Source: Taxillus chinensis (taxonomy: Eukaryota; Streptophyta; Magnoliopsida; Santalales; Loranthaceae). From it: DNA of 64,000 nt. A program made the translations under genes and the position numbers. Below, one piece after another: positions 3,433 through 63,070 of the stretch. Location: positions 58,081,865-58,145,864 of the forward strand of contig CM042090.1 of NCBI GenBank assembly GCA_023512835.1, written 5' to 3'. The notes under the pieces are model-generated. The model was not told the origin of the DNA. It saw nothing but the letters and a program-made list of their open reading frames with translations, and made no database searches. Numbering within the stretch: the first letter of the stretch is position 1; the number at the start of each line of letters is the position of its first letter.

Positions 3433-5596
3433 GCTAATACATATACGGATCCTTACAAAGATACTAATAAAAAGATATCAACAAGGTTTTCATCCTTGTA
3501 AAGAGAAGGAAACAACCTAGATTCTATCTTCACAGCTAGAGCAAAGTTGTTAATGCTTTCAGTAGTGTATAGTCCCTCAGCAACAAGTATTTTGCTTATA
3601 TCTTAAGGTAAGAAAGGAAACATAGTTAGACAACTTCGCTCAGTAGTGGAGTTGGTATACTCTTTCATTGTATTAAAAATACTTTCATCTTCATCAGCCG
3701 GATCAAGTTTTGCATATGATGGGAGGAAGGTGATGTCCGCAGTAGGAGCAGAAGAAGATGGAGCGGCACTGGAGGAGCTGGCCTTGGAAGGTGGGTAGCA
3801 GCTACATTTTGGGATAACGAGGCCCGAAGGTAGAGTAGTAGCAGGCCGCTTTCCAGTATTTCGGGTCCGAGCGAAAGGATTAGCAACGTCCTCAGTAGCA
3901 GCAGTAGCAGCAGGAGCAGATGGCAAATTCTCCCCCTTTTTGGAAGATCGGTGATGGGTGCTAGGGACGTGAGCCATGGTATGCGCCAGATCCGCAAAGG
4001 AAGAAGACAGGGAATGAACCGAGGAGGCCACCAGTTCCATCTTTTGCTGCATGGAGGTGGAGGAGTTAGTGAGGGTAGAAAGGAGTTGAGCACCAAGAGC
4101 ATCAACCTTAACGACGATGACAATAATTTGGGAGTGGACCGTGCCATAAGAGGCCTGTCCAAGGGCAAACTCCGGAGCTTTGGAAGACTCCCACGTATAA
4201 AGTGGGGTAGGAGTGTGCTGGGCAGAGGAGTCAGTAGGAGAAGAAACCGGAAGGTCGGCAGCAACAGCATCCGGAGCATCAGAGGCATCTGGGGCGGTAG
4301 ACCTGCTATGACCAGAGAGGTCCATAATTGGGACATCCGCCAGAGAAGAAGGCCCGACCTCAGCAGGGAAAGAAACCCGTGCATCGTGGGCCAGTCCGGA
4401 GGAAGCAGTAGCAAGAGGGGCATCTTGGAGGGAAGCCGGCGAGAGAAAACCATATTCCAAGTTCCGAACGATCATAACATCCGGGGTTTGGGTATGTTGA
4501 GCATAATATACCTAGAGATCGTTGTCAGGGATGGTGCCAATGTAGGCAAGACTGAAATGGAACCATAAGTCCGTAAGAATGTTGGCAGAGAGATGATTCA
4601 GGTAGTCTTGAGGCTGGAGGGGCAAGTTCGGAGTAATGGCCGGAGGAGAAGCAAGAGTAGTAGCAGCAGGTTCAGCAGGAGCAGGGGCATCAGCAGAAGA
4701 TGGTGCTGAGGGTTCAGCCGGAGTAGAAAAAGGTTTAGATGACCCCGCAACTTTGGACGAATCAGTGCGAATGCTGTACTGTGAGCCTCAGGAGAAGGAA
4801 GGAGTGGCAACAGGTTAGATTTGGGAGGAGTGGTGGGTAGAACTAACCTCATGGGTGGAGCTGTCAGCTGGGTCACCAATAGAACTACCCTATTGTTCCG
4901 GGGCGGCTGGAAGTAGGAGGCCGGTGAACAGTCAGATTCCTATCGGGTGTTAGATGGTGAAGATAGTAAGCCTGAGGGAAAGTGACGATAGAATGTCCGT
5001 TGAAATGGGACGGATGAAGATGCCAGAAGACAATGGTGAGTACCCACCCAAAGGATAAGTCTTTACGTTGTTGCCCATCAACCGAAATAGGAATGCCCCC
5101 CAATCCATTGGCAAACACTCAAAAACTCCATACATAGCTAGAAGCAGATCGTATGGGACGGAGTCGAGGGCAGATGTCCGAGTTAGTAAGCACCAGCTCA
5201 GGATTGTGGTCGTACAATGATAGCGGCCTCGGAAGGACTTCAGCTTGTATTCCTTCCCTTTGTGTGTGCAACCCATCTTGCTGCCATTGTCTTTGGCTCT
5301 GGCTGCGGGTGAGTACCAGGAGGTAGGTGAAGAGCTACACGAAGAACGTTAAGGGTGATGACGATGGACTCACCTCGAATAGTGGATTTATTGGAGTCGA
5401 TGGTGCAACGGATGTTCTGGTAGTATTCAAGGATGTCGTTGAGAAGTAAGTCGACTGGATTAGAGACCAGATTTAGAAAGTGGTTAGCGTCGAGAAGTGG
5501 GCGGAGCTCCAGAAACCATGTCGGAGGATTAGAAATTCCGTTCCAATCAACTAGGTAGCCTGGATTTACTCCAAATAGTGCAGCTTTGGGTGCCAT
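3433..5596 (-). pseudogene. ORF3 of element A, broken
   Basis: The ATG at 5596 opens a product beginning MAPKAALFGVNPGYLVDW, clearly homologous to the ORF3 copies at 38164, 49434 and 56929. The first frame breaks near 5240 and homology continues in other frames (5276-4950, 5118-4885, 4879-4598, 4475-3603). Next comes a Pro/Ala/Ser-rich part with a heptad-like stretch (VDALGAQLLSTL), then the conserved SFLPSY-like segment and TTERSCL. After a stop near 3603 the same frame still encodes SLYKDENL. The copy is cut off there, before the protease-like C-terminus seen in E. The N-terminal 150 residues resemble the plant-transposon Transposase_32 family, which needs a profile search. No signal peptide or membrane segment is visible. 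Confidence 0.7.
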
Positions 5597-41701: not shown

Positions 41702-42426
41702 TGATGGTCCCTTGGAGCCTAGAGGGGGGTGAATAGGCTCTTATCTAAACTCTTTTCCTCTCTTAAGACACAAACACTTATCCAGTTAAGTGATAGAATC
41801 ACTGCGGAAGATAACCAGATAGTGGAAGTATTTTGTTTTATTATCAAAAGATAAATACAACAAAATAGAAGGAAGACTCTCTTACACTCTGTTTACAGAG
41901 GAATTCACATACTAGCCAAATTCTATCTTTTGAACTCTTGTGCAAACACAGGGTTGATCTTCACTCACATACACACATTTACACACATGTACAAGTATGA
42001 ATATTTATACAAACATTCCTAAGAGACAACCTTGGAACTTGTAGTTCCGGAATGCGTTCAGCACTAACTATTCCTCGGTAATCTCTCTGCCTTGACTGCT
42101 GCGGTTTGTGGAGCTCAAGATCTTGGGTTTGAAGAGTATAAGTGCCTTTGTGAGTTCCCAACTATAATTGAGGTTGTGCCCACATATCCGGGTGATCCAC
42201 GTGTAAGATTCTTCAGGTTCTCAACGAGTTTGTCTTACATCGGGACACCACGAGCTGATAACTTTAAATGCGGTAGTTTGAAGTAGCATCTTCTTGGTCC
42301 GGTGTAATTTTCCTTACTCCGTTGCTAATGAAGCTCGGAACCTTACTCCATGTCAGTGGTTGCTTACTCCGTATCTATTAGGTACTGGAATCCTTAGTCC
42401 GTGTCAGTGCTTCCTTATTTCGCATG
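41702..42426 (-). repeat. 3' LTR of D, part 1
   Basis: Reverse complement of the copia LTR, starting TGATGGTCCCTTGG. Broken at 42426 in the minisatellite by element E. GCATG (42422-42426) is the target site of E. Confidence 0.9.
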
Positions 42427-43967
42427 TGTTGGATCAAGCCCAGAATTTGGATAATGCTGATAAAGCCTGATGTAATTTGATCTGAGATCTTTTGTGTTTC
42501 TTTGATCATTGCAGAAGATATGTTATTAATCCGGAGATACACTCGTGAGAGCAAAGCTAAGGATAGGATACATAATCCTGATCCGGACAAGAGTGAGTGT
42601 CGTTAAACACTTGGTAAATAACCAGGTCACCAATACATACGGAATAAGGAACATTCGTGCGAACTATGAACTTAAAAGCTACGGATTACGGAATATGTTC
42701 CTAGTGCCTCAAACGGACTAAGTCAAACTGATGCGGAGTAAGAGTCTTGGTCAACAAGGTCGCACGAAGTAAAAGATTTGACGTGGAGTTAAAAAGTTAA
42801 GTCTTCCCTCAAGCGAACTAAAGTGAAGAAGACACGGAGTAAGGCATCCGAGTCTTTCATATATATGGAGTAAGGAAGTATTAATGCGGAATAAGGACCT
42901 GAGTCTTTATTCGCACGGAGTAAGGTAACTAGATGCGGAGTAAGGAATCCGGACAACTTTACTCATACGGAGTAAGGAAGCTCTAGTACGGAGTAATCAT
43001 TCCGATCCCTTAGACTCGCCCGGAGTAAGGAACTTACATACGGAGTAAGGAAGCGCTAGTACGGAGTAAGCACTCAGATCCCTTAGACTCACCCGGAGTA
43101 AGGAACTTACATACGGAGTAAGGAACTTACATACGGAGTAAGGAACTTACATACGGAGTAAGGAAGCGCTAGTACGGAGTAAGCACTCAGATCCCTTAGA
43201 CTCGCCCGGAGTAAGGAACTTACATATGGAGTAAGGAACTTACATGCGGAGTAAGGAAGCGCTGACACGGACTAAGGATTCCAATACCAAATAGATACGG
43301 AGTAAGCAACCACTGACACGGAGTAAGGTTCCGAGCTTCATTAGCAACAGAGTAAGCAAAATTACACTGGACCAAGAAGATGCTACTTCAATTCACCGCA
43401 TTTAAGGCTATCAGCTCGTGGCGTCTCGATGTAAGACAAACTCATTGAGAACCTGAAGAATCTTACACGTGGATCACCCGGATATGTGGACACAATCTTA
43501 AGTATATTTGGGAACTCACAAAGGAACTTATACTCTTCAAACCCAAGATCTTGAGCTCCACAAACCGCAGCAGTCAAGACAGAGAGATTACTGAGGAATA
43601 GTTAGTGCTGAACCCATTCCGGAACTACAAGTTCTAAGGTTGTCTTTAAGGAATGCTTGTATAAATATTCATACTTGTACATTTGTAAAAGTATGTGTGC
43701 GAACGAGCCTGAATAACCTGTGTATGCACAAGAGCTCAAAGAGATAATCTAGGCTAGTGTGTGAAATCCCTTTGTAAACAGAGTGTAAGAGAGTCTTGCT
43801 TCTATTTTGTTGTATTTATCTTTTGATAATAAAACAAAATACTTCCACTATCTGGTTATCTTCCGCAGTGATTCTATCACTTGACTAGATTAGTGTGGTG
43901 CCTTAAGAGATCAAAAAAGTTTCGATAAGAGCCTATTCACCCCCCTCTAGGCTCCAAGGGACCATCA
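42427..43967 (+). repeat. 5' LTR of element E
   Basis: TGTTGGATCAAGCCC to GGGACCATCA, 1541 bp. The CGGAGTAAGGAA minisatellite spans about 42831-43370 and has one or more extra units relative to the 3' LTR. TATAAATA at 43660-43667. Confidence 0.95.
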
Positions 43968-43969
43968 AG

Positions 43970-43981
43970 TGGTATCAGAGC
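43970..43981 (+). other. Primer-binding site, tRNA-iMet (element E)
   Basis: TGGTATCAGAGC, 2 nt after the 5' LTR, as in element B. Confidence 0.93.
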
Positions 43982-44028
43982 AAGTTCTATTTGTTCTAAA
44001 TAGAGATCCCACTCTTTCGCTCTCAGCA

Positions 44029-44593
44029 ATGGCCGAAGAAAGCAGTATGCTATTCAACACTCGCCTTAACTCCGGAGGTGCACAAGAGCCCATCCCAAAT
44101 CGAAGCAGCAGTGAAAACGTCGACCCACCTCAACCTGCGGCTGCTGCCGCTCCTCAACCACGGAGTTCTGGTTTTACTCTGACGAAACCGGCCAAATTCA
44201 CACTTGAGCTTTTCTCCCAGTGGAAAGCTCGCGTGAAGATGTTTATGGTATGCCATGATCATCTCATGTGGCCATGTCTTCATCAGGAGATTCCAATTCC
44301 GATGACTATCGGAGAACATGGAGTTAGGAGGCCAAAGATAGATGTTGAACTTACCAACGATGAAAAAGCCTGGCAGTGCGCTAGTGAAAAGGCTCTGGCC
44401 TATGTTATATCATCTTTGGATTCCGAGGCTTTCACAGACGTCCAGGGCTGCACGACAGCAAAAGCTGTTTGGGATAAACTGACAATCCTCTATGAGGGGA
44501 GTCAGTCCCAAATGCAAAATGTGATATGTACTCTCAGGCAGAACTTTGAGAGTTTCAATCATAAACCAGGCGAATCACTCGAAAGTATCTATC
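44029..44593 (+). pseudogene. gag N-terminal part of element E
   Basis: The ATG at 44029 gives MAEESSMLFNTRLNSGGA and about 188 residues of capsid-type Gag, nearly identical to B (WKARVKMFMVCHDHLMWPCL, AKAVWDKLTILYEGS, GESLESIYR). At 44593 it jumps directly into the sequence that follows the protease active site in B (VALVEGLKHNLL, in another frame). The nucleocapsid zinc knuckle, the coiled coil and the protease DSG motif are deleted. Confidence 0.9.
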
Positions 44594-47500
44594 GGAGTTG
44601 CACTAGTCGAAGGTTTAAAGCACAATTTGCTAAGTGTCAGTAATTTATGTGACAAAGGATTTACTGTTTCCTTTATGTCCAACACCTGTACAGTAAGAGA
44701 AAACTTATCCGGAGATGTTAAGTTATCTGGATCAAGAGATGGGGACATATACTCAGTGCTCTTAAGAAATAATTCTTCTGACCCTGTATGCTTCCTTACT
44801 AAAGCTTCAGATGAAGATAGTTGGTTATGGCACAAGCGATGCGCACATTTAAACTTTAAGACTTTGTCTAAATTAACGTCACTTGATCTTGTCACTAGTC
44901 TTACTAAACTCAAATTCTCTAGAGACTCTCTCTGACGAGAATGCCAACTGGGCAAGCAGACCAAACATAGCTTTAAGAGCAAATCAGTTAATTCAATAAC
45001 TACTCCTCTACAACTTCTTCATATGGACCTCTGTGGTCCTATTTCTGTTCCATCACTGGCTGGTGCGAGATATACCCTCGTGGTTATCGATGATTTCACC
45101 AGGTATACATGGGTGATGTTCTTGAAATCAAAGGATCAAACCTTTGAGCATCTTGTAGATCTTTTCAACTGGATAAGCAACTGACAAGGACTGAGCATAA
45201 AGTGCATCAGAAGTGATCATTGTACAGAATTTGATTTTTCAGAAATGAGATCATATTGTTCTGAACAGGGCATACAGCATGACTTCTCTTGCTCCCGAAC
45301 TCCACAACAAAATGGGGTAGCTGAGCGCAAGAATCGTACTTTAGTTGAGGCTAGTAGATCCATGTTAGCAGGGGTAACACTTCCTCTCAGTCTATGGGCT
45401 GAAGCTGTGTCCACTGCCTGCTATGTTCAGAACAGAACTCTAATAAATAAATCTACCATGAAAACACCCTATGAGATGTGGAGATGACAAAAACCTTCAA
45501 TTTCACATTTCAGAGCTTTTGGGTGTACTTGCTATATATTGATAAATGGCAAAGAGACCCGAAATAAATTTGAACCGAAATCTGATGATGGGATCTTTGT
45601 CGGGTACTCATTACATAGCAAAGCTTATCGGGTCTTCAATAGAAAACTTTTTAAAGTTGAAGAATCTATCCATGTGACCTTTGATGAAACTAATCTTGAT
45701 TGGTCAAAAGTTGCTTCTTCAAGTTCTAACGTACAGGTTCAAGACAACAACATCGACTATTCAAAGTCTATGACTATTCCTGTTATACATACTGACCAAC
45801 CAAGCGGCACCAGAGGAGCACAAAGAAATGATATGGACGATGCTATGGATAACTCGGACTCCGGACTACCGTTTAGCTCCGGACATACTCCTACGGATAC
45901 CCAAAATTTCGGAGCACCTTCAAGTCCGTCCGGACTAGTTAACACTGACAGAAACAGTGTTGAAGAACCATCTAGTTCTACCGTACCTTCTAATAAGGAA
46001 ACATCTGGTCCGGAAGAAGCTCAACCAGCAGATATACGTGAACCACCAAATCTGGAAGAGCTTCAAATTATTCATGATCAACCATCACATGCACAGAATT
46101 ACAGATGGACCCGAAACCATCCCTCAAATCAAGTGATTGGTGATCCTACTGTTGGTGTAAGAACAAGAGCAGCCACCTCCAACATGAGTCTTTACTCGTG
46201 TTTTCTATCACAAATAGAACCAAAGGTGGTAGATGAAGCTCTTCAGGATTCGAATTGGATAGAAGCCATGCAAGAAGAGCTGAATCAATTTAAGAGAAAT
46301 AATGTGTGGACCTTAGTACCAAGGCCTAAGTCTCAGCAAGTCATTGGCGTTAAATGGGTGTTCCGGAACAAACTTGATACGGATGGAATAGTAATCCGGA
46401 ACAAAGCCAGACTGGTAGATAAAGGATATCGTCAAGAAGAAGGAATAGACTATGATGAGACCTTTGCTCCAGTAGCAAGACTTGAGGCAATCCGGATGTT
46501 TTTGGCGTATGCTTCATATGAAAACTTCATAGTTTATCAAATGGACATCAAGAGCGCATTCCTGAATGGAGATCTTCAAGAGGAGGTTTACGTAGAACAA
46601 CCTCCCAGTTTCATTGAACCTAAAGCAGGACATCTAGTCTACAAGCTTCAGAAAGCTTTATATGGTTTGAAGCAAGCTCCAAGAGCTTGGTACGACACAC
46701 TGTCAGAATTCCTACTTGCTCACAACTTCCAAAAAGGGAAGATTGACACCACCTTATTTCTACGAAAAGAGAAAGGGCACACTCTAATCGTACAGATATA
46801 CGTGGATGATATCATTTTCGGATCAACGAATTCGAAGCTTTGTGAAGAGTTTGCTAAGTTGATGACAGGCAAGTTTGAGATGAGCATGGAGGGAGAACTG
46901 TCCTACTTCCTCGGAATAGAAGTTAAACAATTGAAGGAAGGAATCTTCATTAATCAAGCTAAGTACACTCGCGATCTTATTGAGAAGTTTGGTATAGAAG
47001 GTTCATCTCCCGTCAAAACTCCCATGCTTGTCAGTGCCAAGTTAGATCCTGATGTGGATGGCATATCAGTAAATGTGACTGACTACAGAGGGATGATAGG
47101 ATCATTGCTGTATCTTATTGCAAGTTGCCCAGACATTATGTTTGCAACTTGCATTTGTGCACGATATCAGGCGAATCCCAATGAGTCAAATATGCTTCAT
47201 GTTAAACGGATATTAAGGTATCTCAAGGGAACGATGAATTTGGGACTCTGGTACCGAAAGGAGTCCAACTTCACCTTATCCGGATACTCTGATGCCGACT
47301 TTGCTGGATATCGCATCGACAGGAAGAGCACAAGTGGTACGTGTCAATTTCTTGGAAATAGATTAATTTCATGGTTCAGTTGAAGCATTTCGTATCAACC
47401 TCTCTCATGGAGGCGGAATACATAATCTTTGGGAGTTGCTGCGCACGACTACTCGGATGCAAAGTCAACTTACGACTACGGTTTCAACATGTCATCTATT

Positions 47501-47741
47501 CCACTCTACCTGCGACAACACTAGTGCAATTGCTATCAGCAACAATCCTGTCATGCACCCTAAGACGAAGCATATTGAGGTCAGGTATCACTTCATACGC
47601 GACCATGTTCTGAAAAATCACATTTCCTTGGAACATGTTGCTACTGAAGATCAATTGGCAGACATACTTACAAAGCCCCTACCTGATGCAAGATTCTCTG
47701 AACTACTCATCCGATTAGGTATGCTTGACTTCTCTGTATAG
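44594..47741 (+). pseudogene. pol of copia element E
   Basis: Starts after the protease active site (VALVEGLKHNLLSVSNLC), then the integrase zinc-binding part (LWHKRCAHLNF). The integrase core has HMDLCGPI, an altered RSDHCTEF around the second Asp (Asp kept, Gly changed), and GVAERKNRTL with the catalytic Glu. Stops occur near 44935, 45183 and 45487. RT (within 45539-47383) is long and open, with [30 protein letters not shown] and intact YVDD ([11 protein letters not shown]). RNase H has [19 protein letters not shown], then a stop at 47383 and frameshifts. The end (47436-47741) has NTSAIAISNNPV and finishes LGMLDFSV. Best preserved RT of the window. Confidence 0.92.
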
Positions 47742-49433
47742 CTTCATATTTAAATTACCCAACAGTATACTTACTATCAGAACATGCATTGTGCTTTTAT
47801 TGAAAGTAGAAGATACATACTGACTTTAATGCTGATCATACTTACTGATTAACGGTCTCATGCTTCTGATATTAATATCAACTTCATACTGGAAGGATGC
47901 TTGCGTTTCCCGACTAAAGTCATTAAAGCAAACATGATTAAAGTTTATATGATTCACCTCTTTCTGGATTCATGATCTTAATTTCCACTGATCACCACAT
48001 GACAAAAGCATGTTCACTTAGATTACTCTATTAACATGTATAGTTGAAGAAATGAAATGGGTTAGCTCGGAATGCCTGGTGGATGAATACTCAAGCGCGA
48101 TCGATCAACAAGTATAGTTTTCTAATAAAATAGACAAGTGCTGAATTTCTACAAACCGGAAAGGTCAACCGAGAGGATTGCACAATCTACGGGGGAGAAA
48201 ATGCTTAATATATTATTCGAGTAATACCCCCCGTATATGTCTCATGACTTCTTTCCTCGCTGTCTATTTGAGGGGGAGCTTTTCACTGAGAGGATCAAAT
48301 GATCTACGGGGGAGCTTAAATTTCATCAATTACATCAGTAATGACCCCCTAATATGTCTCGGAAACTCCCTCCTCTAAACCTTTACTTCCAGATCTGACT
48401 GGACATGCTGTTTTGAATCAGAATAGTGGCATGCTTGGATGTATTTTCCTTCTTCAACCATACATTTTAATCGGCTAATCACCTGCTTACTTTTGACATG
48501 TGTTCACTTCCTCATTTTTCACTCATGAATCCTAAATTGGCCAAGTCATATGATTTTTAACTAATCTCAGCTACGTCGTTCAGCAGGACGGTTTTGCTAT
48601 GTTGACCTATATGAACTTGTGTATTTTTATCTGACATATGCCCTGATTCAGTAATATGATCATTCTCTCGTATGTATATGTCTATTACATTCTTTGTCAT
48701 GCATAAGTTCTGTTTCTCATTAGTTCGGGTTATGTCGTTCTTCAAACTACTTTCTCTTATCCGTACTAATCCTTACCTGTTAAGCTTTTGTATTTTTTAG
48801 TTTATCTTGTTTTAAGCTACAGGTTCAGATTCTCTTTGCAACCTTATCGGTAAATCTAGTCCATCGTCTTGGATTTGAAGTGTTGTGGTACTTCTCTTCT
48901 CTTCGACTTTTTGACAAGCAAAGGAATCTATTTCTCTCTCACCGCACTTTGTTACTACGGAAACGGTCTACTTTTCATCCAGATACTCGTCACACGACTA
49001 TCATTAATTCCGGATGATTGTCGGTTCATTCCTCCGAACTCCAGACACTGTCACATTGCGATAATCCATGTCCTCTCTTATATCGCATGCTTTTGAGGGG
49101 GAATCATGATGATTCATTAAATGCAAATCTCGGGATGCACACATTTCTCCGGATGGCAAACAGCTGTTACCTTTACTTGGTCATGCGGTCTCCATGACAT
49201 CATTTCATTCGTAGGCGCATCGATATCCAGACTAATGACATCAGCCTGTCAAGCGGTTCCCTATTTCACTCGCCAAATTCCTAGACCCGTTGACATTTAC
49301 GGACTCGGTCTTATATATTCTGGTCATTCTTGCGAAGCACGAGTATTGCTAATTCCAAATCCCTAAACCTCCCGTTGCTCCTTTGATACCCAAGACCTCA
49401 CCTTTCCTCTCGTCCTTCAATCCTTCATCTACA
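47742..49433 (+). other. Element E pol-ORF3 spacer
   Basis: Uninterrupted version of the spacer broken by CACTA in B. It holds the duplicated polypurine block (48172-48362), TACTAAT (48764-48770) with TTTTTTAG and CTACAG (to 48822), a 75-codon ORF (48869-49096), a 62-codon antisense ORF (48745-48557) and the ORF3 TATA box. Confidence 0.8.
49312..49317 (+). promoter_or_regulatory. TATA box upstream of ORF3 (element E)
   Basis: TATATA in TCTTATATATTCTGG, about 120 nt before the ATG at 49434, followed by a CT-rich leader. Confidence 0.55.
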
Positions 49434-52142
49434 ATGGCACCCAGAATCTCTCTATCCGGCGTTAATCCTGGCCATCTGGTCGATTGGAGTGCCGTCTCTA
49501 ACCCTCCGGTCTGGTTTTTCCAACTTCGCCCTCTACTCGAAGCCTCGCATATACTCAACTTGATCTCCAATCCTGTCGATCTTCTTATCGATGACATTAA
49601 TGAGTATTACCAAAGGATTCGCTCTACCACCGACTCCATCATCTCCTATGTTCGCGGTGAATCCATTATCATCACTCCCGCCGTTCTCCGCGCTGCTCTC
49701 CACTTACCCCTCGGTGAACCACAGCGCCCAGATGCCGATCCAATGGCCACCTCTATGGGATGCACCCAAAAAGGCAAGGAATACAAGGTGAAATCCTTCC
49801 AAGGTCCCTATCGCTGTATGGCGACCATACTGAGTCGTTGTTTACTGGCTCGCACTTCAGCTCTGGACTCGATTCCTTACGATCTTCTCCTGGCCATGTA
49901 CGACATTTTTGAAGGTCTTCCGATGGACTGGGGGATGTTCTTGTTTCGACTGCTGCAGAATGGTCCCATGAACCATTCCTTCGGGCGCATACTCAGCATC
50001 GTCTTCCGGCATCTTAATCCGGACCATTTCGCCCGCTATGATGCTGTTCCATTTCCCTCGGCTTATTACCTCCGTTATCTTACGCCGGATGGGAACATGA
50101 CAGCCCACCGTCCCTCTGCAGCTCTCCGCATTCTCCCTGCCTCGGAACAACAAGGCAGTTCTGTTGGTGACCCCTCCGACAGCCAAGTCCCTGACGTCAG
50201 TTCTGCACCCCGATCCTCTGTTATTCAGTCTGTTGCAGCACCTTCTGTTTCTCGGGCCTCCCAGCACAGCGTTCGTGCCGACCCATCTGAGGTTGCGGGG
50301 CCATCTCAGTGCAGTGCCCCTAAAGCTGTTTCCTCCGCCCCCTTTGCTACGGATGTCCCCACTCCCTCCACCTCCGCTATTTCTGCCGCGGTTGATACCG
50401 CTATTGTTGTCGTCATTGCTGATGTCCCGGAATCTACTCCTGAAGCTCCTTTGCCTCCCCTACCTCAACCCCGAGATTACCTTGACCATCTCTCCGCCGA
50501 CACCTTAACAGACCTATGGCTCCGTATCAGCCTTGCCCACACTACCACCATTCCTGATAACGATCTCCGGGTGTTTTTCACACGCCATACACAATCCCCG
50601 GAGACCATGATCATCTGGAACTTGGATCACGGCTTTCTTACGCCGGCCTCCATTCCAGATGTGCCGTTCCCTAATCCCTCCAGCCCAGTCCATTCCGCCT
50701 GGGGTCCTTCCCCTGCTAAAGCTGGCCCCTCTTCTCCTGCTGACGCCATTCCCGTGGTTGACCTATCTGGTCGAAGCGGGTCAGCTGCTCCGGATGCCTC
50801 TGATGCTCCGGATGCCCCTTCGCTCGTCTGCTTGATATTCGGCGGACTCCCTCGCCCAGCCGCACTCCTGCTCCTGTTCATGCGGGGGAGTCCTCCAAAG
50901 CTCCGGAGTTGGTCCTTGGGCGTGCCTCTTTTGGCACGGTCCACTCCGACGCTGTGCTCTCCGCCCAGCTGGACCGCCACGCTTAGGCTCACAACGCCCA
51001 AATATCCGCCATCGCCGCCAAGGCTGATGCACTCGGTGCCCAACTCCTCTCCGCTCTCACTGACTCCTCCACTTCTATGGAGCAGAAAATGGATCTCATC
51101 GCCTCGTCCGTCCATTCCTTGTCTACTTCCTTCACGGACCTGGCTCACACGATGGCTCGCCCACCCGTTGCTTCCCGGTGATCTGCCAAACCGGGGGAGA
51201 GAGTGTCATCTGATCCTGCTCCTTCTGCACCACAACCATCCACTCGTGCTGAGAAGCGGCCTACCTCTTCAGTGCTTCAGGGAGTTCAAATTCCCAAACG
51301 TAGCCGCTTCTCTCAGCCAAGCTCCTCTTCTATCCTCCTTATCCGCAGCTGACACCTTCCTCCCATCATATGCGGCATTTGACCCTTCTGATGCGGATGG
51401 AAGTGTGCGCAAGGCAATGAAGTCATATGCTGCTTCTTCTACTGAGAGAAGATGTCTTTCTGACCTGTACCCTTTCTCCCCGGCCGACATTCAGACCCTT
51501 TGTTCGGAGAAATGACTCTTTACAACAGAAGACATTGACAACTTCTCTAGGGCAGCTAAAATGGAGATGAGGCTGTTTCCATCTCTATACAAGGATAGGC
51601 ACTTGTTTGAAGTTCTGCCGTGATGGAATGAAGGCTATCTTCCCAGTGTGGATCTCATTCAGTCCTTCATCGACGGAACTACTGAGGATAGCAAGCCATG
51701 GAAAACTCTCTCAACTATCCTCATTCCATACTGGATCATGTCGCCACAATTCATGATGGTTGTCTTCATGATTCAGTCCAAGCAAATGATTCGGATTGAT
51801 TCTCATCAGATTGTGGAACATTTTGTAAGAAAGAATCAATGGGAACCACTGTGTCTCAGGCAGACTGAAGCTGTGAAGAAAGCTGGATTATATGAAGAGT
51901 TGGGCATCACACCCTTGAGTCCAACTGAGAAGCTGAAGGCGACATTTCGGGGCAAGAAGCAAGTTCCACAACAACCGGATGGAGATAGCTGCGGGGCCTT
52001 TCTCTGTTACTTCATCAAGTCATTCTTGACTATGGACAAATCTTGGAGCCAACACACTACTTATACGATGAAGCGGACAATGGAGCTTAGAGAGAAAGCA
52101 GCAATTATGATCTTCAAGTATAGTAAGCCTTATGTACCTTAG
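49434..52142 (+). pseudogene. ORF3 of element E, with Ulp1-like C-terminus
   Basis: The ATG at 49434 (context ACAATGGCA) starts MAPRISLSGVNPGHLVDW. The N-terminal domain (about residues 1-230) is as in B and resembles Transposase_32. A Pro/Ala/Ser-rich linker follows; between about 50813 and 51290 it is read out of frame, then the original frame returns at SAADTFLPSYAAFDPSDADG. The first stop is TGA at 51513-51515; the same frame continues (TTEDIDNFSRAAKMEMRLFP, SLYKDRHLFEVLP), has a second TGA at 51621 where D has a Cys codon, and ends TAG at 52142. Full length would be about 900 residues. The C-terminus is described separately. It is not an obvious envelope glycoprotein: I see no signal peptide or membrane segment. 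Confidence 0.78.
51648..52142 (+). pseudogene. Ulp1/SENP (C48)-like protease domain of ORF3
   Basis: C-terminal 165 residues of ORF3. LSTILIPYWI corresponds to the IFIPI strand before the catalytic His in Ulp1 proteases. SPQFMMVVFMIQSKQMIRID then aligns with HWvLlvidl..k.iyvlDS, with the catalytic His replaced by Gln (PQF for the usual HW) and the Asp kept (RIDSH). KKQVPQQPDGDSCGAFLCYF matches vpqQ.ngyDCGvf, giving the oxyanion Gln and catalytic Cys. Ulp1 enzymes cleave SUMO-type conjugates. Such domains are known as cargo of some plant DNA transposons. Here it is part of a copia element, bounded by the polypurine tract 133 bp downstream. The lost His suggests this copy is inactive. Confidence 0.78.
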
Positions 52143-52274
52143 TGAAAATCTTGTATTAAGGCTGAATTGTATTTTGTTGCTGATAAATGAAAATTAGTTG
52201 TGATGCGTATTCTGTATGTTATATTTTTGCACTGCTTACCAGATCAGATTACAAAGGGTTTGGGCATATCCATA

Positions 52275-52286
52275 ATTGGGGGAGAT
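52275..52286 (+). other. Polypurine tract of element E
   Basis: AATTGGGGGAGAT directly before the 3' LTR; primes plus-strand DNA synthesis. Confidence 0.9.
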
Positions 52287-53806
52287 TGTTGGATCAAGCC
52301 CAGAATTTGGATAATGCTGATAAAGCCTTATGTAATTTGATCTAAGATCTTTCGTGTTTCTTTGATTGTTACAGAAGATATGTTATTAATCCGAAGATAC
52401 ACTCGTGAGAGCAAAGCTAAGGACAGGATACATAATCCTGATCCGGACAAGAGTGAGTGTCGTCAAACACTTGGTAAATAACCAAGTCACCAATACATAC
52501 GGAATAAGGAACATTCGTGCGGACTAAGAACTTAAAAGCTACGGATTACGGAATATGTTCCTAGTGCCTCAAACGGACTAAGTCAAACTGATGCGGAGTA
52601 AGAGTCTTGGTCAACAAGATCGCACGAAGTAAAAGATTTGACGTGGAGTTAAAAAGTTAAGTCTTCCCTCAAGCAAACTAAAGTGAAGAAGACACGGAGT
52701 AAGGCATCCGAGTCTTTCATACATACGGAGTAAGGAAGTATTAATGCAGAATAAGGACCCGAGTTTTTATTCGCATGGAGTAAGGAAACTAGATGCGGAG
52801 TAAGGAATCCGGACAACTTTACTCATACGGAGTAAGGAAGCGCTAGTACGGAGTAATCATTTCGATCCCTTAGACTCGCCCAGAGTAAGGAACTTACATA
52901 CGGAGTAAGGAAGCGCTAGTATGGAGTAAGCACTCAGATCCCTTAGACTCGCCCGGAGTAAGGAAGTTACATACGGAGTAAGGAACTTACATATGGAGTA
53001 AGGAAGCGCTATTACGGAGTAAGCACTCAGATCCCTTAGACTCACCCGGAGTAAGGAACTTACATACGGAGTAAGGAACTTACATGCGGAGTAAGGAAGC
53101 ACTGACATGGACTAAGGATTCCAGTACCAAATAGATATGGAGTAAGCAACCACTGACACGAAGTAAGGTTCCGAGCTTCATTAGTAACGGAGTAAGGAAA
53201 ATTACACTGGACCAAGAAGATACTACTTCAATTCACCGCATTTAAGGCTATCAGCTCGTGGTGTCCCGATGTAAGACAAACTCATTGAGATCCTGAAGAA
53301 TCTTACATGTGGATCACCCGGATATGTGGACACAATCTTAAGTATATTTGGGAACTCACAAAGGCACTTATACTCTTCAAACCCAAGATCTTGAGCTCCA
53401 CAAACCGCAGCAGTCAAGACAGAGAGATTACCGAGGAATAGTTAGTGCTGAACGCATTCCGGAACTACAAGTTCCAAGGTTGTCTTTTAGGAATGTTTGT
53501 ATAAATATTCATACTTGTACATTTGTAAAAGTATGTGTGCGAACGAGCCTGAATAACCTGTGTATGCACAAGAGCTCAAAGTGATAATCTAGGCTAGTGT
53601 GTGAATCCCTTTGTAAACAGAGTGTAAGAGAGTCTTGCTTCTATTTTGTTGTATTTATCTCTTGATAATAAAACAAAATACTTCTACTATCTGGTTATCT
53701 TCCGCAGCGATTCTATCACTTGACTAGATTAGTGTGGTGCCTTAAGAGATCAAAAGAGTTTCGATAAGAGCCTATTCACCCCCCTCTAGGCTCCAAGGGA
53801 CCATCA
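52287..53806 (+). repeat. 3' LTR of element E
   Basis: 1520 bp, TGTTGGATCAAGCCC to GGGACCATCA. Minisatellite at about 52690-53200, TATAAATA at 53500-53507. Confidence 0.95.
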
Positions 53807-54363
53807 GCATGTAAGTTCCTTACTCCGTATGAAAGTTCCTTACTCCGTATGAGTGAGTGGCCCGGATTCCTTACTCTGCATCTAATTTCCTTACTCCGTG
53901 CGAATAAAGACTTGGGTCCTTATTCCGCATCAATACTTCCTTACTCCGTATCTATGAAAGACTCGAATCCCTTACTCCGTGTCTTCTTTAGTTCGCTTGA
54001 GGGGAAGACTTAACCTTTTACTTCGTGCGACCTTGTAGACCAAGACTCTTACTCTGCATCAGTTTGACTTAGTCCGTTTGAGGCATTAGGAACAGATTCC
54101 GTAATCTGTAGCTTTTAAGTTCTTAGTCCGCACGAATGTTCCTTATTCCGTATGTATTGGTGACTTGGTTATTTACCAAGTGTTTGACGACACTCACTCT
54201 TGTCCGGATCAGGATTATGTATCCTGTCCTTAGCTTTGCTCTCACGAGTGTATCTCCGGATTAATAACATATCTTCTGCAACAATCAAAGAAACACAAAA
54301 GATCTCAGATCAAATTACATAAGGCTTTATTAGCATTATCCAAATTCTGGGCTTGATCCAATA
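53807..54363 (-). repeat. 3' LTR of D, part 2
   Basis: Continues part 1 after element E, beginning with the duplicated GCATG. Ends GGGCTTGATCCAATA, so the LTR terminus reads TATTGG where the family has TGTTGG: a point change of the terminal G. Confidence 0.92.
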
Positions 54364-54375
54364 ATCTCCCCCAAT
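54364..54375 (-). other. Polypurine tract of element D
   Basis: ATCTCCCCCAAT on plus is ATTGGGGGAGAT on minus, directly before the 3' LTR. Confidence 0.88.
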
Positions 54376-54504
54376 TATGGATATGCCCAAACCCTTTGTA
54401 ATCTGATCTGGTAAGCAGTGCAAAAAGATAACATACAAATACGCATCACAACCAATTTCATTCATCAAGAATGAATACAATTCAGCCTTTATACAAGATT
54501 TTCA

Positions 54505-56929
54505 TTAAGGTACATAAGGCTTACTATACTTGAAGATCATAGTTGCTACTTTCTCTCTAAGCTCCATTGTCTGCTTCATCGTATAAGTGGTGTGTTGGCT
54601 CCATGATCCAGTATGGAATGAGGATAGTTGAGAGAGTTTTCCATGGCTTGCTATCCTCAGCAGTTCCGTCGATGAAGGACTGAATGAGATCTACACTGGG
54701 AAGATAGCCTTCATTCCAGCACGGCAGAACTTCAAACAAGTGCCCATCCTTGTATAGAGATGGAAACGAGCCTCATCTCCATTTTAGCAGCCCTGGAGAA
54801 GTTGTCAATGTCTTCTTGTAAAGAGTCCTTTTTCCGAACAAAGGGTCCAAATGTCGTCCGGGGGAAAAAGGGTACATGTCAGAGAGACATCTTCTCTCGG
54901 AAGAAACAACGATAGGACTTCATTGCCTTACGCACGCTTCCATCCGCATCAGAAGGGTCACACGCCGCGTATGATGGGAGGAAGGTGTCAGCTGCGGATG
55001 GAGAGGATGGAGGAAGAGCTGCACTCGAGGAGCTTGGCTGAGAGAAGTGGCTACGTTTGGGAATTTGGACTCCCTGAAGCAATGAAGAGGCAGGCCGCTT
55101 CCCAGCACGAGTGGATGGTTGAGGTGCAGGAGGAACAGAAGGATCAGATGACACTTTCTCCCCCGGTTTGGCATATCGTCGGGAAGCAACGGGAGGGCGA
55201 GCCATCGTATGGGCCAGGTCCATGAAGGAGGTAGACAAGGAATGGACGGATGAGGCAACAAGATCCATCTTCTGTTCCACAGAAGTGGAGGAATCAGTGA
55301 AAGCGGAGAGGAGGTGGGCGCCAAGTGCATCAACCTTGGCGGCGATGGCGGATAATTGGGCGCTATGAGCTTGAGCGTGGCGGTCCAGCTGGGCAGAGAG
55401 CACAGCGTCGGAGTCGACCGTGCCAAAAGAAGCACGCCCAATGATCAACTCAGGAGTTTTGGAAGACTCCCCCGTATGAACAGGAGCAGGAGTGCGCTGG
55501 GCAGAGGAGTCCACAGGAGTATCAGCAGCAGCAGCAGAAGGTGCATCCGGAGCATCAGAGGCATTCGGAGCAGCAGACCCGCTTTGACCAGATAGGTCAA
55601 CAATGGGAATGGCGGCAGCAGGAGAAGAAGGTCCAGCCTTAGCAGGGGAAGAACTTCGTGTGGCATGGACCGGGCTAGAAGGTGTAGGGAACGACACATC
55701 TGGAATGGAGGCCGGCGTAAGAAAGCCTTGGTCCAAGTTCCAGATGATCATGGTCTCCGGGGATTAGGTATGATGCGTGTAAAACACCCGGAGATCGGTG
55801 TCAGGAATGGAGGCAGTGTGGGCAAGGCTGAAACGGAGCCATAGGTCCGTTAAGGTGTCGGCGGAGAGATGGTCAAGATAATCTCGGGGTTGAGGGAGGG
55901 GAGGCAAAGGAGCTTCGGGAGTAGATTCCGGGACATCAGCAATGACGGCAAGAATAACAGCGGATCAACCGCGGCAGCAACAATGGAGGGAGGTAGAGGG
56001 AGTGGGGACATCCGCAGCAATGGGGCCTGAGGAAACAGCTTTAGGGGCACAGCACTGAGATGGCCCCGCAACCTCGGACGGTTCGGCATGGACGCTGTGC
56101 TGGGAGCCCGAGAAAGGGAGGGTGCTGTAACGGACCGAATCCGGGAGGATCGGGGAGCAGAACTGACGTCAGGGGCTTGGCTATCCGAGGGGTCACCAAC
56201 AGAACTACCTTGTTGTTCCGAGGCAGGGAGAATGCGGAGAGCTGCAGTGGGACGGCGGGCTGTCATGTTCCCATCCGGTGTAAGATAACGGAGGTAATAA
56301 GCCAAGGGAAATGGAACAGCATCATAGCGGGCGAAATGGTTCAGATTAAGATGCCGGAAGACGATGCTTAGTATGCACCCGAAAGAATAGTTCTTGGGAC
56401 CATTCTACAGCAGTCGGAACAACAACATCCCCCAGTCCATCGGAAGACCTTTAAAAACACCGTACATGGCCAGGAGAAGATCGTAAGGAACCGAGTCCAG
56501 AGCTGAAGTGCGAGCTAGTAAACAACGACTCAGTATGGTCGCCATACAGCGATAGCGACCTTGGAAGGATTTCACCTTGTATTCCTTGCCTTTTTGGGTG
56601 CAACCCATAGAAGCTGCCATTGGATCGGCATTTGGGCGCTGTGGTTGACCGGGGGGTAGGTGGAGAGCAACGCGGAGAATGGCGGGAGTGATGATGATGG
56701 ATTCACTGCGAACATAAGAGATGATGGAGTCGGTGGTACAGCGAATCCTTTGGTAATACCCAATAATGTCGTCAATAAGAAGATCGACAGGATTGGAGAT
56801 CAGGTTGAGGATATGCGAGGCTTCGAGTAGAGGTCGAAGTTGGGAAAACCAGTCCGGAGGGTTAGAGACAGCACTCCAATCGACCAGATGGCTAGGATTA
56901 ACGCTGGAAAGAGAGATTCTGGGTGCCAT
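54505..56929 (-). pseudogene. ORF3 of element D, protease core deleted
   Basis: The ATG at 56929 starts MAPRISLSSVNPSHLVDW. The frame is open to 56405, where a TAG replaces the Gln codon of the other copies, and continues as YYLRYLTPDGNMTARRP with a frameshift near 56100. The segment 55751-54879 preserves the linker and a heptad-rich stretch (LSAIAAKVDALGAHLLSAF, EQKMDLVASSVHSLSTSF), then basic GKRPASSLLQGVQIPKR and ADTFLPSYAACDPSDADG. After a one-base shift comes FEVLPCWNEGYLPSVDLIQ and IPYWIM. There about 340 bp are missing relative to E, taking away the whole catalytic part of the Ulp1-like domain. The natural stop codon equivalent lies at 54505-54507. Confidence 0.78.
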
Positions 56930-57044
56930 TGCAAATGAAAGTTGAAGGGCGAGAGGAAAGGTGAGGTCTTGGGGATTGTAGGAGCAACGAGAGATTTAGG
57001 GATTTGAGAAGAGCAATACTCGTGTTTCGCAGGAATGACCAGAA

Positions 57045-57050
57045 TATATA
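57045..57050 (-). promoter_or_regulatory. TATA box upstream of ORF3 (element D)
   Basis: TATATA on the minus strand about 120 nt before the ATG at 56929, with the same CT-rich leader. Confidence 0.55.
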
Positions 57051-58605
57051 AGACCGAGTCCGTAAATGTCAGCGGGTGAAACAGTGAACCGCTTGACAGG
57101 CTGATGTCATTAGTCTTGATATCGATGCGCCTCCGAATTATAAGATGACGTGGAGGCGACATGACCAAATAAGGGTAACAGCTGTTCGCCTTCCGGAGAA
57201 GTGTGTGCATCCCGAGATATGCATTTAATGAATCATCATGATTCCTCCTCAAAAGCACGCGATATAAGAGAAGACATGGATTATCGCAATTTGGCAGTAT
57301 CTGGAGTCCGGAGGAATGAACCGACAATCATCCGGAATTAGCGATAGTCGTGTGACGAGTATTCAGATGAAAAGTAGACTGTTTCCGTAGTAACAAAGTG
57401 CAGTGAGAGAGAAATAGATTCCTTTGCTTGTCAAAAAGTCGAAGAGAAGAGAAGTACCACAACACTTCAAATCCAAGACGATGGACTAGATTTACCGATA
57501 AGGTTGCAAAGAGAATCTGAACCTGTAGCTTAAAACAAGATAAACTAAAAAATACAAAAGCTTAACAGGTAAGGATTAGTACGGATAAGAGAAAGTAGGC
57601 TGTGAAGAATGACATAACCCGAACTAATGAGAAACAGAACTTATGCATGACAAAGAATGTAATAGACATATACATACGAGAGAATGATCATATTACTGAA
57701 TCAGGGCATATGTCAGATAAAAATACACAAGTTCATATAGGTCAACATAGCGAAACCGTCCTGCTGAACGACGTAGCTGAGATTAGTTAAAAATCATATG
57801 ATTTGGCCAATTTAGGATTCATGAGTGAAAAACGAGGAAGTGAACACATGTCAAAAGTAAGCAGGTGATTAGCCGATTAAAATGTATGGTTGAAGAAGGA
57901 AAATACATCCAAGCATGCCACTATTGTGATTCAAAACAAGATGTCCAAATGATCCCAAGTAAAGGTTTAGAGGAGGGAGTTTCCGAGACATATTAGGGGG
58001 TCATTACTGATGTAATAGATGAAATTTAAGCTCCCCCGTAGATCATTTGATCCTCGCAGTGAAAAGCTCCCCCTCAAATAGACAGCCAGGAAAGAAGTCA
58101 TGAGACATATACTGGGGTATTACTCGAATAATATATTAAGCATTTTCTCCCCCGTAGATTGTGCAATCCTCTCGGTTGACCTTTCTGGTTTGTAGAAATT
58201 CAGCACTTGTCTATTTTATTAGAAAACTATACTTGAAGTGATCGGGATCGGATTGAGTATTCATCCACCAGGCATTCCGAGCTAACCCATTTCATTTCTT
58301 CAACTATACATGTTAATAGAGTAATCTAAATGAACATGCTTTTGTCATGTGGTGATCAGTGGAAATTAAGATCATGAAACCTGAAAGAGGTGAATCATAT
58401 AAACTTTAATCATGTCTGCTTAAGAGACTTCAGTCGGGAAACGCAAGCATCCTCCCAATATGAAGTTGATATTAATATCAGAAGCATGAGGACGTTAATC
58501 AGTAAGTATGATCAACATTAAAGTCAGTATGTATCTTCTACTTTCAATAAAAACACATTGCATGTTCTGATAATAAGTATACTGTTGGGTAATTTAAATG
58601 TGAAG
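57051..58605 (-). other. Element D pol-ORF3 spacer
   Basis: Non-coding. Carries TACTAAT (minus, 57581-57575), the duplicated polypurine block (57982-58172) and a 62-codon ORF on plus (57602-57790) matching the antisense ORFs in B and E. Confidence 0.8.
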
Positions 58606-60659
58606 CTATGGCAAGAAGTCAAGCATACCTAATCGGATGAGTAGTTCAGAGAATCTTGCATCAGGTAAGGGCTTTGTAAGTATGTCTGCCAATTGATCTT
58701 CAGTAGCAACATGTTCCAAGGAAATGTGATTTTTGAGAACATGGTCGCGTATGAAGTGATACCTGACCTCAATATGCTTCGTCTTAGGATGCATGACGAT
58801 TGTTGTTGCTGATAAGAATTGCACTAGTGTTGTCGCAGTAGAGAGTGGAATGGATGACATGTTGAAACCGTAGTCGCAAGTTGACTCGCATCCGGAGTAA
58901 CTGTCTGCAACGAACTTCCAAGCGTATGTATTCCTCCTCCGCCGTAGAGGTTGATACGGAATTCGTTTCATCGAACCATGAAATTAATCTATTTCCAAGA
59001 AACTGACACGTACCACTTGTGCTCTTCCTGTCGATGCGACATCCAGTGAAGTCGGCATCAGAGTATCCAGATAAGGTGAAGTTGGACTCCTTTGGGTACC
59101 AGAGTCCCAAATTCACCGTTCCCTTGAGGTACCTTAATATCCGTTTAACATGAAGCATATGTGACTCCTTGGGATTCGCCTGATATCGTGCACAGATGCA
59201 AGTTGCAAACATAATGTCTCGGCGACTTGCTGTAAGATACAGCAAGGATCCTATCATCCCTCTGTAGTCAGTCACATTTACTGATATGCCATCCACATTA
59301 GGATCTAACTTGGCATTGATAGGCATGGGAGTTTTGACGGGAGATGAACCTTCCAAAGGTTCATCTCCTTTGGCTACCAGTCTGGCTTTGGTCCGGATTA
59401 CTATTCCATCCGTATCAAGTTTGTTCCAGAACACCCATTTAACGCCAATGACTTGCTGAGACTTAGGCCTTGGTACTAAGGTCCACACATTATTTCTCTT
59501 AAATTGATTCTGCTCTTCTTGCATGGCTTCTATCCAATTCGAATCCTGAAGAGCTTCATCTACCACCTTTGGTTCTATTTGAGATAGAAAACACGAGTGA
59601 AGACTCATGTTGGAGGTGGCTGCTCTTGTTCTTACACCAACAGCAGGATCACCAATCACTTGATCTGACTGAGGGATGGTTTCGGGTCCATCTGTAATTC
59701 TGTGCATGTGATAGATGATCTTCAACAATTTGAAGCTCTGCCAGATTAGGTGGTTCAGGTGTATCTACTGGTTGAGCTTCGTCCGGACTAGATGTTTCCG
59801 TATTAGAAGGTATGGTAGAACTAGGTGGTTCTTCAACACTATTTCTTTCAGTGTTAACTAGTCCGGACGGACTTGAAGGTGCTCCGGAATTTTGGGTATC
59901 CGTAGGAGTATGTCCGGAGCTTAATGGTAGTCCGGAGTCCGAGTCATCTGTAGCATCATCCATATAATTTCTTTGTGCCTCGCTGATGCCACGTGGTTGG
60001 TCAGAATGTGTAACAGGAACATTCATAAACTTCGAATAATCGATGGTGCTGTCCATGACCTTTGCTGTTGTCACCATATGAAACGGATGGACCTCGTTTT
60101 TCATTAACTTCTATAAGCAGAGTCTGATCACCCGTCATATGTCCGGAGCATCCACTATCGAGGATCCACTTGCTTTGATTGATCTTTAACTTCAAGTGAT
60201 CCGGCATTGCATTCCAGAGATGCTCCTGAAAGACAACAGTTTACACTTTTGGTACCCAAACTTGTTTCGAGTGGTTAGAGAGAGCAGCAGTAATGTCAAC
60301 AGTTACAGATTTGATTTTGCTAGGACTTTTAGCTCTCCAAGTTGACTTTAACTTGTTAGTTTCAGCTGCCTCTTTTATTTGGGTTTTCTTGGGAGAGATA
60401 TTCCTTTGAAGACAGGGCCACATGAGATGGTCATGGCATACCATGAACATCTTCATGCGAGCTTTCCACTGGGAGAAAAGCTCAGGTGTGAATTTTGGCG
60501 GTTTTGTCAGAGTAAAACCAGAACTCCGTGGTTGAGCAGTGGAGGCAGTAGCAGGTTGAGGTGGGTCGACGTTTTCACTGTTGCTTCGATTTGGGATGGG
60601 CTCTTGTGCACCTCCGGAGTTAAGGCGAGTGTTGAATAAAGATACGTTTCTTCGGCCAT
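58606..60659 (-). pseudogene. Deleted gag-pol of element D
   Basis: The ATG at 60659 (MAEE) is frameshifted almost at once. Gag then runs GGAQEPIPNRSNSENVDPPQ to HDHLMWPCL and jumps to QRNISPKKTQIKEAAE, deleting most of gag. QVWVPKV is followed by TAA (60243-60241) and then PDHLKLKINQSKWILDSG, an intact protease DSG. After SVSYGDNSKG the sequence jumps into the region after the integrase (TIDYSKFMNVPVTHSDQP), so the integrase is gone. RT begins ([36 protein letters not shown]) but then jumps to [18 protein letters not shown], removing the catalytic core with YVDD. RNase H follows with frameshifts and ends near 58606. Confidence 0.9.
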
Positions 60660-60707
60660 TCTTAGAGAGCGAAAGAGTGGGATCTCTATTTAGAACAAAT
60701 AGAACTT

Positions 60708-60719
60708 GCTCTGATACCA
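60708..60719 (-). other. Primer-binding site, tRNA-iMet (element D)
   Basis: GCTCTGATACCA on plus is TGGTATCAGAGC on minus, 2 nt from the 5' LTR. Confidence 0.93.
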
Positions 60720-60721
60720 CT

Positions 60722-61880: not shown

Positions 61881-62413
61881 CCCCCTGTTTCTGTCACGCC
61901 CCGGATTTCCAACCCGAGGAAACCGGTACGTGACTCCCCATTCACCCACACGGAGGGCAATGGGGTTGGATTACTGGATGCCACACAAGCAAGTCTAACA
62001 ATTACAATAAATCAAATAAGCCACATCTTTATTTAATTCCAAAACATCAAAGGTTCACAAAACAACCAAGTCCCTGATTACAGTTCAATCCCTTAGTACA
62101 TTCCCCTCCCTGGGGTTACATAAATCATAAAAGTACATTACTGAAATGAACAATAAAGTGGAGAGGGTCTTCCACCTTGGTGTATCCACCTAACGCCTGT
62201 AAGTCCCCTGGAAAACAAACAAACACAGGTAGGAGGGGTGAGCAACCACAGCTCGGTAGGGATCATGTCTCCCCAACCCATCCCATGTTCCTAGCATCTA
62301 CATGCCATGTGTACAAGTGCGGTGTCGTGATACAATAATTTCAACAAACATAATAACAACCACATCAACAATTTACAATCTTCCACTGCCACACAAGCTA
62401 ACACTTTAACCAC

Positions 62414-62517
62414 AAGTGATTTAACCGCCTCTTCAGGCCAAGTTATTTAACCGCCTCTTCAGGCCAAGTGATTTAACCGCCTCTTCAGGCCAAGTGATTT
62501 AACCGCCTCTTCAGGCC
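62414..62517 (-). repeat. 26 bp minisatellite in the LTR, four copies
   Basis: Four near-perfect units AAGTGATTTAACCGCCTCTT/CAGGCC starting at 62414, 62440, 62466 and 62492. Confidence 0.9.

Positions 62518-62997: not shown

Positions 62998-63000
<3 letters not shown>

Positions 63001-63068: not shown

Positions 63069-63070
<2 letters not shown>

Follow-up and report, generated by a model that had tools for sequence, protein, structure and literature searches.

Structure of element E

We analysed a 64,000-nucleotide stretch of the Taxillus chinensis genome (GenBank assembly GCA_023512835.1, contig CM042090.1, positions 58,081,865 to 58,145,864), hereafter referred to as the window, which corresponds to C7:58081865-58145864 in the 521-Mb assembly used for the genome searches. 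It contains element E (42427-53806), a complete copia retrotransposon with long terminal repeats (LTRs) and Sirevirus-type signals, which carries a third open reading frame (ORF3) between pol and the 3' LTR. The end of ORF3 encodes a domain of the C48 (Ulp1/SENP-like) class of cysteine peptidases. The features of E, in window coordinates, are the following.

42422..42426, no strand: left target-site duplication GCATG; the same 5 bases stand at both ends of E
42427..43967, plus: 5' LTR (TG...CA), from self-comparison
43969..44643, plus: gag, Retrotran_gag_2 (PF14223, 51 bits)
43970..43981, plus: primer binding site TGGTATCAGAGC, 3' of the 5' LTR
45539..47383, plus: pol, retroviral-polymerase SH3-like domain and reverse transcriptase (PF07727, 262.3 bits; PF25597, 55.1 bits)
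47742..49433, plus: linker that separates pol from ORF3 and contains three GGGGGAG tracts (48191, 48272, 48308)
49434..50150, plus: N-terminal part of ORF3, weak Transposase_32 likeness (PF20167, 20.9 bits, cut-off 45); Nei-Gojobori (NG86) ratio 0.12, E versus copy A
50815..51340, plus: middle segment of ORF3, a putative coiled coil in the initial annotation, frame shifted in E; NG86 ratio for E versus A of 0.37 when read in the shifted frame (other frames: 0.87 and 1.76)
51516..52142, plus: C-terminal C48 (Ulp1/SENP-like) domain of ORF3 (PF02902, 24.0 bits); open part 51648-52142
51747..51749, plus: catalytic His column; Gln in E, His in 29 of 30 genome copies, E being the sole exception
51798..51800, plus: catalytic Asp column; Asp in 30 of 30 copies
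51972..51974, plus: oxyanion Gln column; Gln in 29 of 30 copies, one stop
51990..51992, plus: catalytic Cys column; Cys in 30 of 30 copies
52277..52284, plus: polypurine tract (PPT) TGGGGGAG, starting 10 bases 5' of the 3' LTR and followed by AT|TG
52287..53806, plus: 3' LTR (TG...CA), from self-comparison
53807..53811, no strand: right target-site duplication GCATG, from the sequence at the ends of E

The two LTRs are 95.07% identical by self-comparison, with a Kimura two-parameter distance of 0.037 over 1520 aligned sites. Both LTRs contain internal repeats of about 73 bases (42948-43258 and 52808-53098). The features expected of a Ty1/copia element were found in E as gag, an RVT_2 reverse transcriptase and LTRs with a 5-base duplication; a match to the integrase core profile was obtained in a relative in the window at 23806-24792. 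The primer binding site of E is presumably of the tRNA-Met type. In most copia groups, tRNA-Met is the primer (PMC6317226, in part; papers given as "in part" are cited for the portion of their text that was available).

The PPT of E differs by one base from the octamer AGGGGGAG, which belongs to the Sirevirus criteria (PMC2829016, in part); the exact octamer with its AT|TG junction was found in a distant family described below. A further Sirevirus criterion is that the linker contains the PPT in multiple copies, most of them 3' of ORF3. The motif GGGGGAG occurs six times in the sense and zero times in the antisense orientation of E, with three occurrences 5' of ORF3 and two inside it. Around the junction of PPT and LTR, an inverted repeat was identified with a local alignment score of 27, which was reached by 3 of 2000 random stretches of the window.

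ORF3 ends in a C48-type domain

The frame of ORF3 in E opens with an ATG at 49434. The initial annotation, made from the letters alone, had proposed that this frame ends in a Ulp1/SENP-like protease, and profile searches bear this out: the translation of 51648-52139 matched PF02902 over residues 103-156 of 164 with an E-value of 3.9e-5 and 24.0 bits (cut-off 20.7), and the Cys half alone with an E-value of 8.4e-6, while none of seven controls (one reversed, six shuffled) gave a C48 match. The first 102 residues alone, which comprise the His/Asp half, gave no C48 profile match. Nevertheless, we count this half as part of the domain because the full-domain alignment to other C48 genes of the host genome (stretch 51516-52142, residues 6-204, E-value 4e-17, 26.6% identity) spans both halves. 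In addition, 31,140 six-frame segments of the window that are free of stops were scored against the matching Ulp1 and SENP1 segments, and the His-Asp segment of E ranked 4th. Since the domain ends at 52142, ahead of the PPT (52277-52284) and the 3' LTR (52287), it lies inside E, as had been proposed.

The domain resembles SENP1 and yeast Ulp1 in having 17 residues between His and Asp, 6 residues between Gln and Cys, and a PQQ..G..CG box. It differs from them in that they have a Trp beside the His where the family of E has a Phe, and the best direct match in the PDB had an E-value of 0.02. The distance from Asp to Cys is 64 residues in E, as compared to what we take to be 53 in SENP1 and 49 in Ulp1. 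When a complete ORF3 was compared with the PDB, the only match was an imine reductase (E-value 0.04).

No relatives were recovered from the protein database, either with ORF3 (0 matches among the 7989 best candidates scored), with the C48 ORF (0 matches, 5 candidates) or with the N-terminus of another copy, G (0 matches, 1010 candidates). Scans of IMG/VR and GTDB with the C48 ORF confirmed no relative among 5 and 22 pattern matches, respectively, which suggests that these collections contain few or no plant elements. NCBIfam gave no match for three proteins of the window. The low profile score, which barely exceeds the Pfam cut-off, may be part of the reason why the domain has been overlooked in the family of E.

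The plant-transposon domain (Transposase_32, PF20167) that had been proposed for the N-terminus is less well supported. Its cut-off of 45 bits was not reached in E (20.9 bits), in copies G and F (20.4 and 16.7 bits) or in L011, a relative of the distant family (19.5 bits), and L047, L052 and L010 gave no match at an E-value of 0.01. A study of sunflower ties PF20167 to an ORF of Athila LTR retrotransposons (PMC11728184, in part), and for this reason the N-terminal part of ORF3 may be an LTR-element domain rather than an acquisition from a DNA transposon.

As for the copy of the domain in E itself, we reject the reading as an active enzyme, given the Gln in the His column and the in-frame stops.

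The domain is shared by copies across the genome

Two further copies in the window, F and A, retain parts of the domain.

54508..54766, minus: copy F, both edges of the C48 domain with the core missing (tblastn; 305-base gap relative to E)
3474..3572, minus: copy A, start of the C48 domain, then interrupted by other sequence (tblastn, 60.6% identity; reading of 2300-3700)

Over ORF3, E differs from F at 221 of 2398 aligned bases and from A at 694 of 2070. Element F (41702-42427 and 53804-61881, minus strand) is split by E and has lost most of its C48 core; from this arrangement, E appears to have inserted into the 3' LTR of F. The remaining C48 edges (51576-51746 and 52040-52139) differ at about 3-5% of the sites between E and F.

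We searched the genome with the C48 domain of E and scored the best 150 of 8311 first-look candidates. All 150 places, E included, matched the domain at 88-99% identity, a copy number that is a lower bound since only these best candidates were scored. Likewise, 150 of 150 places scored in a search with PF02902 (the best 150 of 4308 candidates) were above the cut-off; among the few of these that were inspected, L009-L011 proved to be ORFs of the distant-family type described below. Copies F and A and the genome copies thus rule out a private insertion in E, and neither an absence of C48 matches from all copies nor a restriction of the domain to E, the two outcomes that would have spoken against the initial annotation, was observed.

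The catalytic columns were read in the 30 best-scoring of the 150 places, E included, a selection that leans towards E-like copies. His was present in 29, Asp in 30, the oxyanion Gln in 29 (the remaining copy having a stop) and Cys in 30, and 25 of the 30 copies were stop-free across the C48 stretch. The predicted His-Asp-Cys triad is found in nearly all of the genome copies that were read, while in E itself the His is replaced by Gln. All 30 copies have the tail of the element directly 3' of the domain, with the start of the LTR 145-148 bases downstream, and the exact TGGGGGAGATTG junction occurs somewhere in the locus in 23 of them.

Ten copies from the same list that had been selected for the length of their open frames were fetched again, this time with additional DNA on the upstream side. 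In two of these, ORF3 is a single open frame of 907 and 910 amino acids with an identical N-terminal start, and the C48 domain of both exceeds the PF02902 cut-off (21.5 and 22.3 bits). The long ORF3 of the initial annotation is hence found in intact form in these two copies, but not in E, where it is interrupted by two in-frame stops (51513-51515 and 51621-51623) and a shifted middle segment.

The same gene in other copia lineages

With the sequence of copy A, 44 matches were listed, and 20 loci, A included, were fetched to represent the A lineage. At the 15 loci that are readable from His to Asp, both residues are present throughout. At the 13 loci readable at the Cys box, Gln was found in 11, and the Cys column contains Cys in 9, Tyr in 3 and a gap in 1.

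A more distant family was identified on C2 (about 19.027-19.041 Mb, minus strand). It has a copia gag (68.2 bits), a reverse transcriptase that is 53.7% identical to that of E over 555 amino acids, the same primer site as E, and a AGGGGGAGATTGTTGG junction with three further octamers 3' of ORF3 (four clustered in all). The 5' LTR of this element is only partly present, and a 5-base duplication was not seen. ORF3 of this family has 997 amino acids from the first Met and a C48 domain that scores 50.5 bits, with HW, DS and SCG boxes; the relative L011 scores 56.4 bits, and its fetched flanks gave no match to a copia reverse transcriptase. The Trp beside the His is present in the distant-family ORFs L009-L011.

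ORF3 of the distant family aligns to that of family 1, the family of E, in two blocks, one over the N-terminal two thirds (E-value 1e-26, largely low-complexity) and one over the C48 domain (E-value 2e-14). The common origin of ORF3 rests on this two-block alignment and not on a tree of the C48 domain (18 rows), in which the deep forks are unresolved and a host-like row forms a long branch, so that a single origin of the domain in family 1 and the A lineage versus the distant family is not settled by the tree. Judged by the alignments, the same ORF3-C48 gene is present in three copia lineages: family 1, the A lineage and the distant Sirevirus-like family.

Selection on the C48 domain

Substitutions in the C48 domain were analysed in all pairs of 29 family-1 copies, with E excluded. 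The proportion of synonymous differences (pS) was 0.146 and that of nonsynonymous differences (pN) 0.015, giving a ratio of 0.093; the two alternative frames gave 1.37 and 2.58. Sites that vary in at least two copies numbered 8, 6 and 40 at codon positions 1, 2 and 3. By these measures, the domain is under purifying selection in family 1. Between the two complete family-1 ORF3s, pN is 0.028 and the ratio 0.087 in the C48 domain versus 0.073 and 0.219 in the remainder; in this pair, the substitutions make C48 the more constrained part of ORF3.

The rest of ORF3 was compared between E and A, and NG86 ratios of 0.12 for the N-terminal part, 0.31 for the next part, 0.37 for the middle (in its shifted frame) and 0.26 for the segment before C48 were obtained, with 0.66 to 1.76 in the other frames. 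For the distant family, the comparison of L010 and L011 gave 0.064 in C48 and 0.19 and 0.18 in the remainder, the low value for C48 being due to near-saturated synonymous sites. Since pN is no lower in C48 (0.231) than elsewhere in ORF3 (0.227 and 0.187), this pair indicates constraint, but not extra constraint on C48.

These patterns bear on the idea that a host Ulp1 gene was captured by chance, or that C48 cargo of another transposon entered one copy, and was carried along as a passenger. Gene capture is common in plant transposons (PMC13317346, in part), and Ulp1 cargo is known from MULE and CACTA elements (PMC2528002, in part). A passenger is nevertheless highly improbable in view of the presence of C48 at all 150 scored places, the single junction shared by all 30 copies that were read, the purifying selection, and the homologous ORF in a distant copia family.

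Comparison with known systems

E is similar to the SIRE elements of the Sirevirus group, in which the extra ORF is called eORF-3'F, in its copia gag-pol, the location of ORF3 between pol and the 3' LTR, LTRs of more than 1 kb, the PPT octamer 10 bases from the LTR, the AT|TG junction and the inverted repeat at the PPT. It also has several PPT copies, the additional ones lying 5' of ORF3 or within it instead of 3' of it. Of the SIRE elements, 74% have an eORF-3'F, which is highly heterogeneous (PMC6317226, in part), and whether the extra ORF of Sireviruses is an "envelope" has been debated, with its function unproven (PMC2829016, in part). The difference is that we found no source that describes a peptidase domain in that ORF, whereas a C48 domain is present here. 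In our literature searches, which covered mainly the open literature and are hence not proof, no paper was found that describes a C48 domain in copia elements. A screen of 121 genomes reported no domain gain in Copia, the terms Ulp1, C48 and SUMO are absent from the main texts of PMC7264820 and PMC11963269, and C48 genes in lupin are merely mentioned in PMC5316927 (in part).

Ulp1 domains are known from other mobile elements. The KAONASHI-Ulp1 (KIU) and VANC-Ulp1 genes of Vandal elements, which are Mutator-like elements (MULEs) without terminal inverted repeats (non-TIR), are likewise extra transposon genes with a Ulp1 domain; they are conserved in eudicots, the role of the domain in them is undefined, and Vandal MULEs that carry KIU hypomethylate their own kind (PMC13317346, in part). 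They differ from E in being DNA transposons in which the domain has another partner, whereas the C48 domain of E is found in copia retrotransposons. In grapevine and rice, the CACTA-ULP and MULE-ULP elements are also plant transposons with a ULP1 domain, and CACTA-ULPs are described as common in plants (PMC2528002, in part), but these are not LTR elements; they are DNA transposons that move by cut and paste and encode Tnp2 or MULE transposases. Ginger1 DNA transposons encode a protein that ends in a Ulp1 or OTU protease (PMC2836005, in part); there the protease is fused to the transposase, while in E the C48 domain is joined to an envelope-like ORF. The sunflower aORF of Athila is an extra ORF of an LTR element with partial similarity to PF20167 (PMC11728184, in part). 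Athila is a Ty3/gypsy element, however, the main text of that paper is without Ulp1, C48 or SUMO, and PF20167 is below the threshold in E.

Other features of the window

An open frame of 737 amino acids (38164-40377, plus strand) consists of the first 460 codons of a copy of ORF3 fused in frame to a foreign copia reverse transcriptase (RVT_2, 124.7 bits), which belongs to a different copia family and is about 67% identical to E in this region. The pol region of copy A is interrupted by a 1.9-kb repeat (10373-12239), possibly a solo LTR that belongs to another element; the repeat recurs at 61892-63739 and partly at 700-2518. On the minus strand, 32353-34062 contains an open frame of 569 amino acids with Transposase_21 (tnp2, 281.6 bits) and DUF4218, a combination which we take to be that of CACTA transposons. 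A head-to-tail repeat with a unit of about 112 bases was observed at 15857-16499.

Putative function of ORF3

ORF3 is positioned between pol and the 3' LTR, has C48 homology at its end, conserves the His-Asp-Gln-Cys columns, is subject to purifying selection and occurs in three lineages. Taken as a whole, ORF3 is probably a Sirevirus-type eORF-3'F that ends in a C48-class cysteine peptidase kept intact in transposing lineages. It is rather likely that the domain acts catalytically, with SUMO or another ubiquitin-like protein as its substrate.

Several observations weigh against this reading. A Phe occupies the Trp column beside the catalytic His in all 30 family-1 copies and in all 15 readable A-lineage copies, so that the activity of these proteins may differ. 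A Tyr is present in the Cys column of three A-lineage copies (L062, L069 and L074), which retain His, Asp and Gln, and one of the ten long-frame copies (L055) is without the SCG box. ORF3 of E is broken, as described above. The C48 edges that remain in E and F differ by 2 synonymous and 7 nonsynonymous changes and show no sign of constraint, in a pair with few changes and with both copies broken, and pN in L010 and L011 is not reduced in C48. AlphaFold models were unusable, with pLDDT (predicted local distance difference test) values of 44.7 for the C48 ORF alone and 35.4 for the N-terminal part (four rows). In yeast, Ulp1 held at nuclear pores accompanies restriction of Ty1 transcription (PMC8585004, in part), a case which shows that SUMO matters for copia elements and leaves the direction of the effect unfixed.

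Some of these observations would fit a domain that has been retained as a module for binding SUMO or ubiquitin, with no catalysis: the uniform Phe in family 1, the Gln at the His column in E and the three Cys-to-Tyr copies of the A lineage. A pure binder would not need all four columns, and their retention in 29 (His), 30 (Asp), 29 (Gln) and 30 (Cys) of the 30 copies speaks against this explanation, which we regard as quite unlikely.

If C48 is an active peptidase, it might strip SUMO from chromatin, from silencing factors or from the proteins of the element itself; the removal of SUMO would then help expression or integration of the element, and the N-terminal part and the middle of ORF3 would serve as targeting parts. 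We put this scheme forward tentatively, with the Ulp1-bearing VANC and KIU proteins of Vandal MULEs as a possible parallel. More doubtful is the broader proposal that an ancient, selected C48 domain represents a core gene of one branch of the Sireviruses, in which case the "envelope-like" ORF would be no envelope but a protein for manipulating the host, erasing SUMO-dependent silencing or the SUMO and ubiquitin tags of the particle.

The domain might instead act in the particle cycle of the element, with silencing not a target, by trimming gag, integrase or ORF3 or by removing their ubiquitin-like tags. Copia pol normally encodes an aspartic protease already, and we consider a role in the particle cycle unlikely. 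An ORF in the env position that ends in C48 would suit such a role, as would the stronger constraint on C48 relative to the rest of ORF3 in the family-1 pair, and the Ulp1 and OTU domains on several transposases have been proposed to aid transposition itself (PMC2836005, in part). That the particle or preintegration complex thereby survives and enters the nucleus is, as part of this alternative, equally unlikely.

Under the preferred reading of ORF3 as an eORF-3'F with a C48-class peptidase, a conserved peptidase domain in which the catalytic residues are kept provides a concrete candidate activity for the extra ORF in these families. Ulp1 domains were already known from Vandal MULEs, from CACTA and MULE elements and from Ginger1; a C48 domain in the envelope-like ORF of copia elements did not turn up in our searches of the mainly open literature. 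Its maintenance by selection hints that the element tampers with the SUMO system of the host. If the host-manipulation proposal is true, one class of enzyme would have been taken up independently by copia elements and by Vandal MULEs, in each case to act against the same defence.

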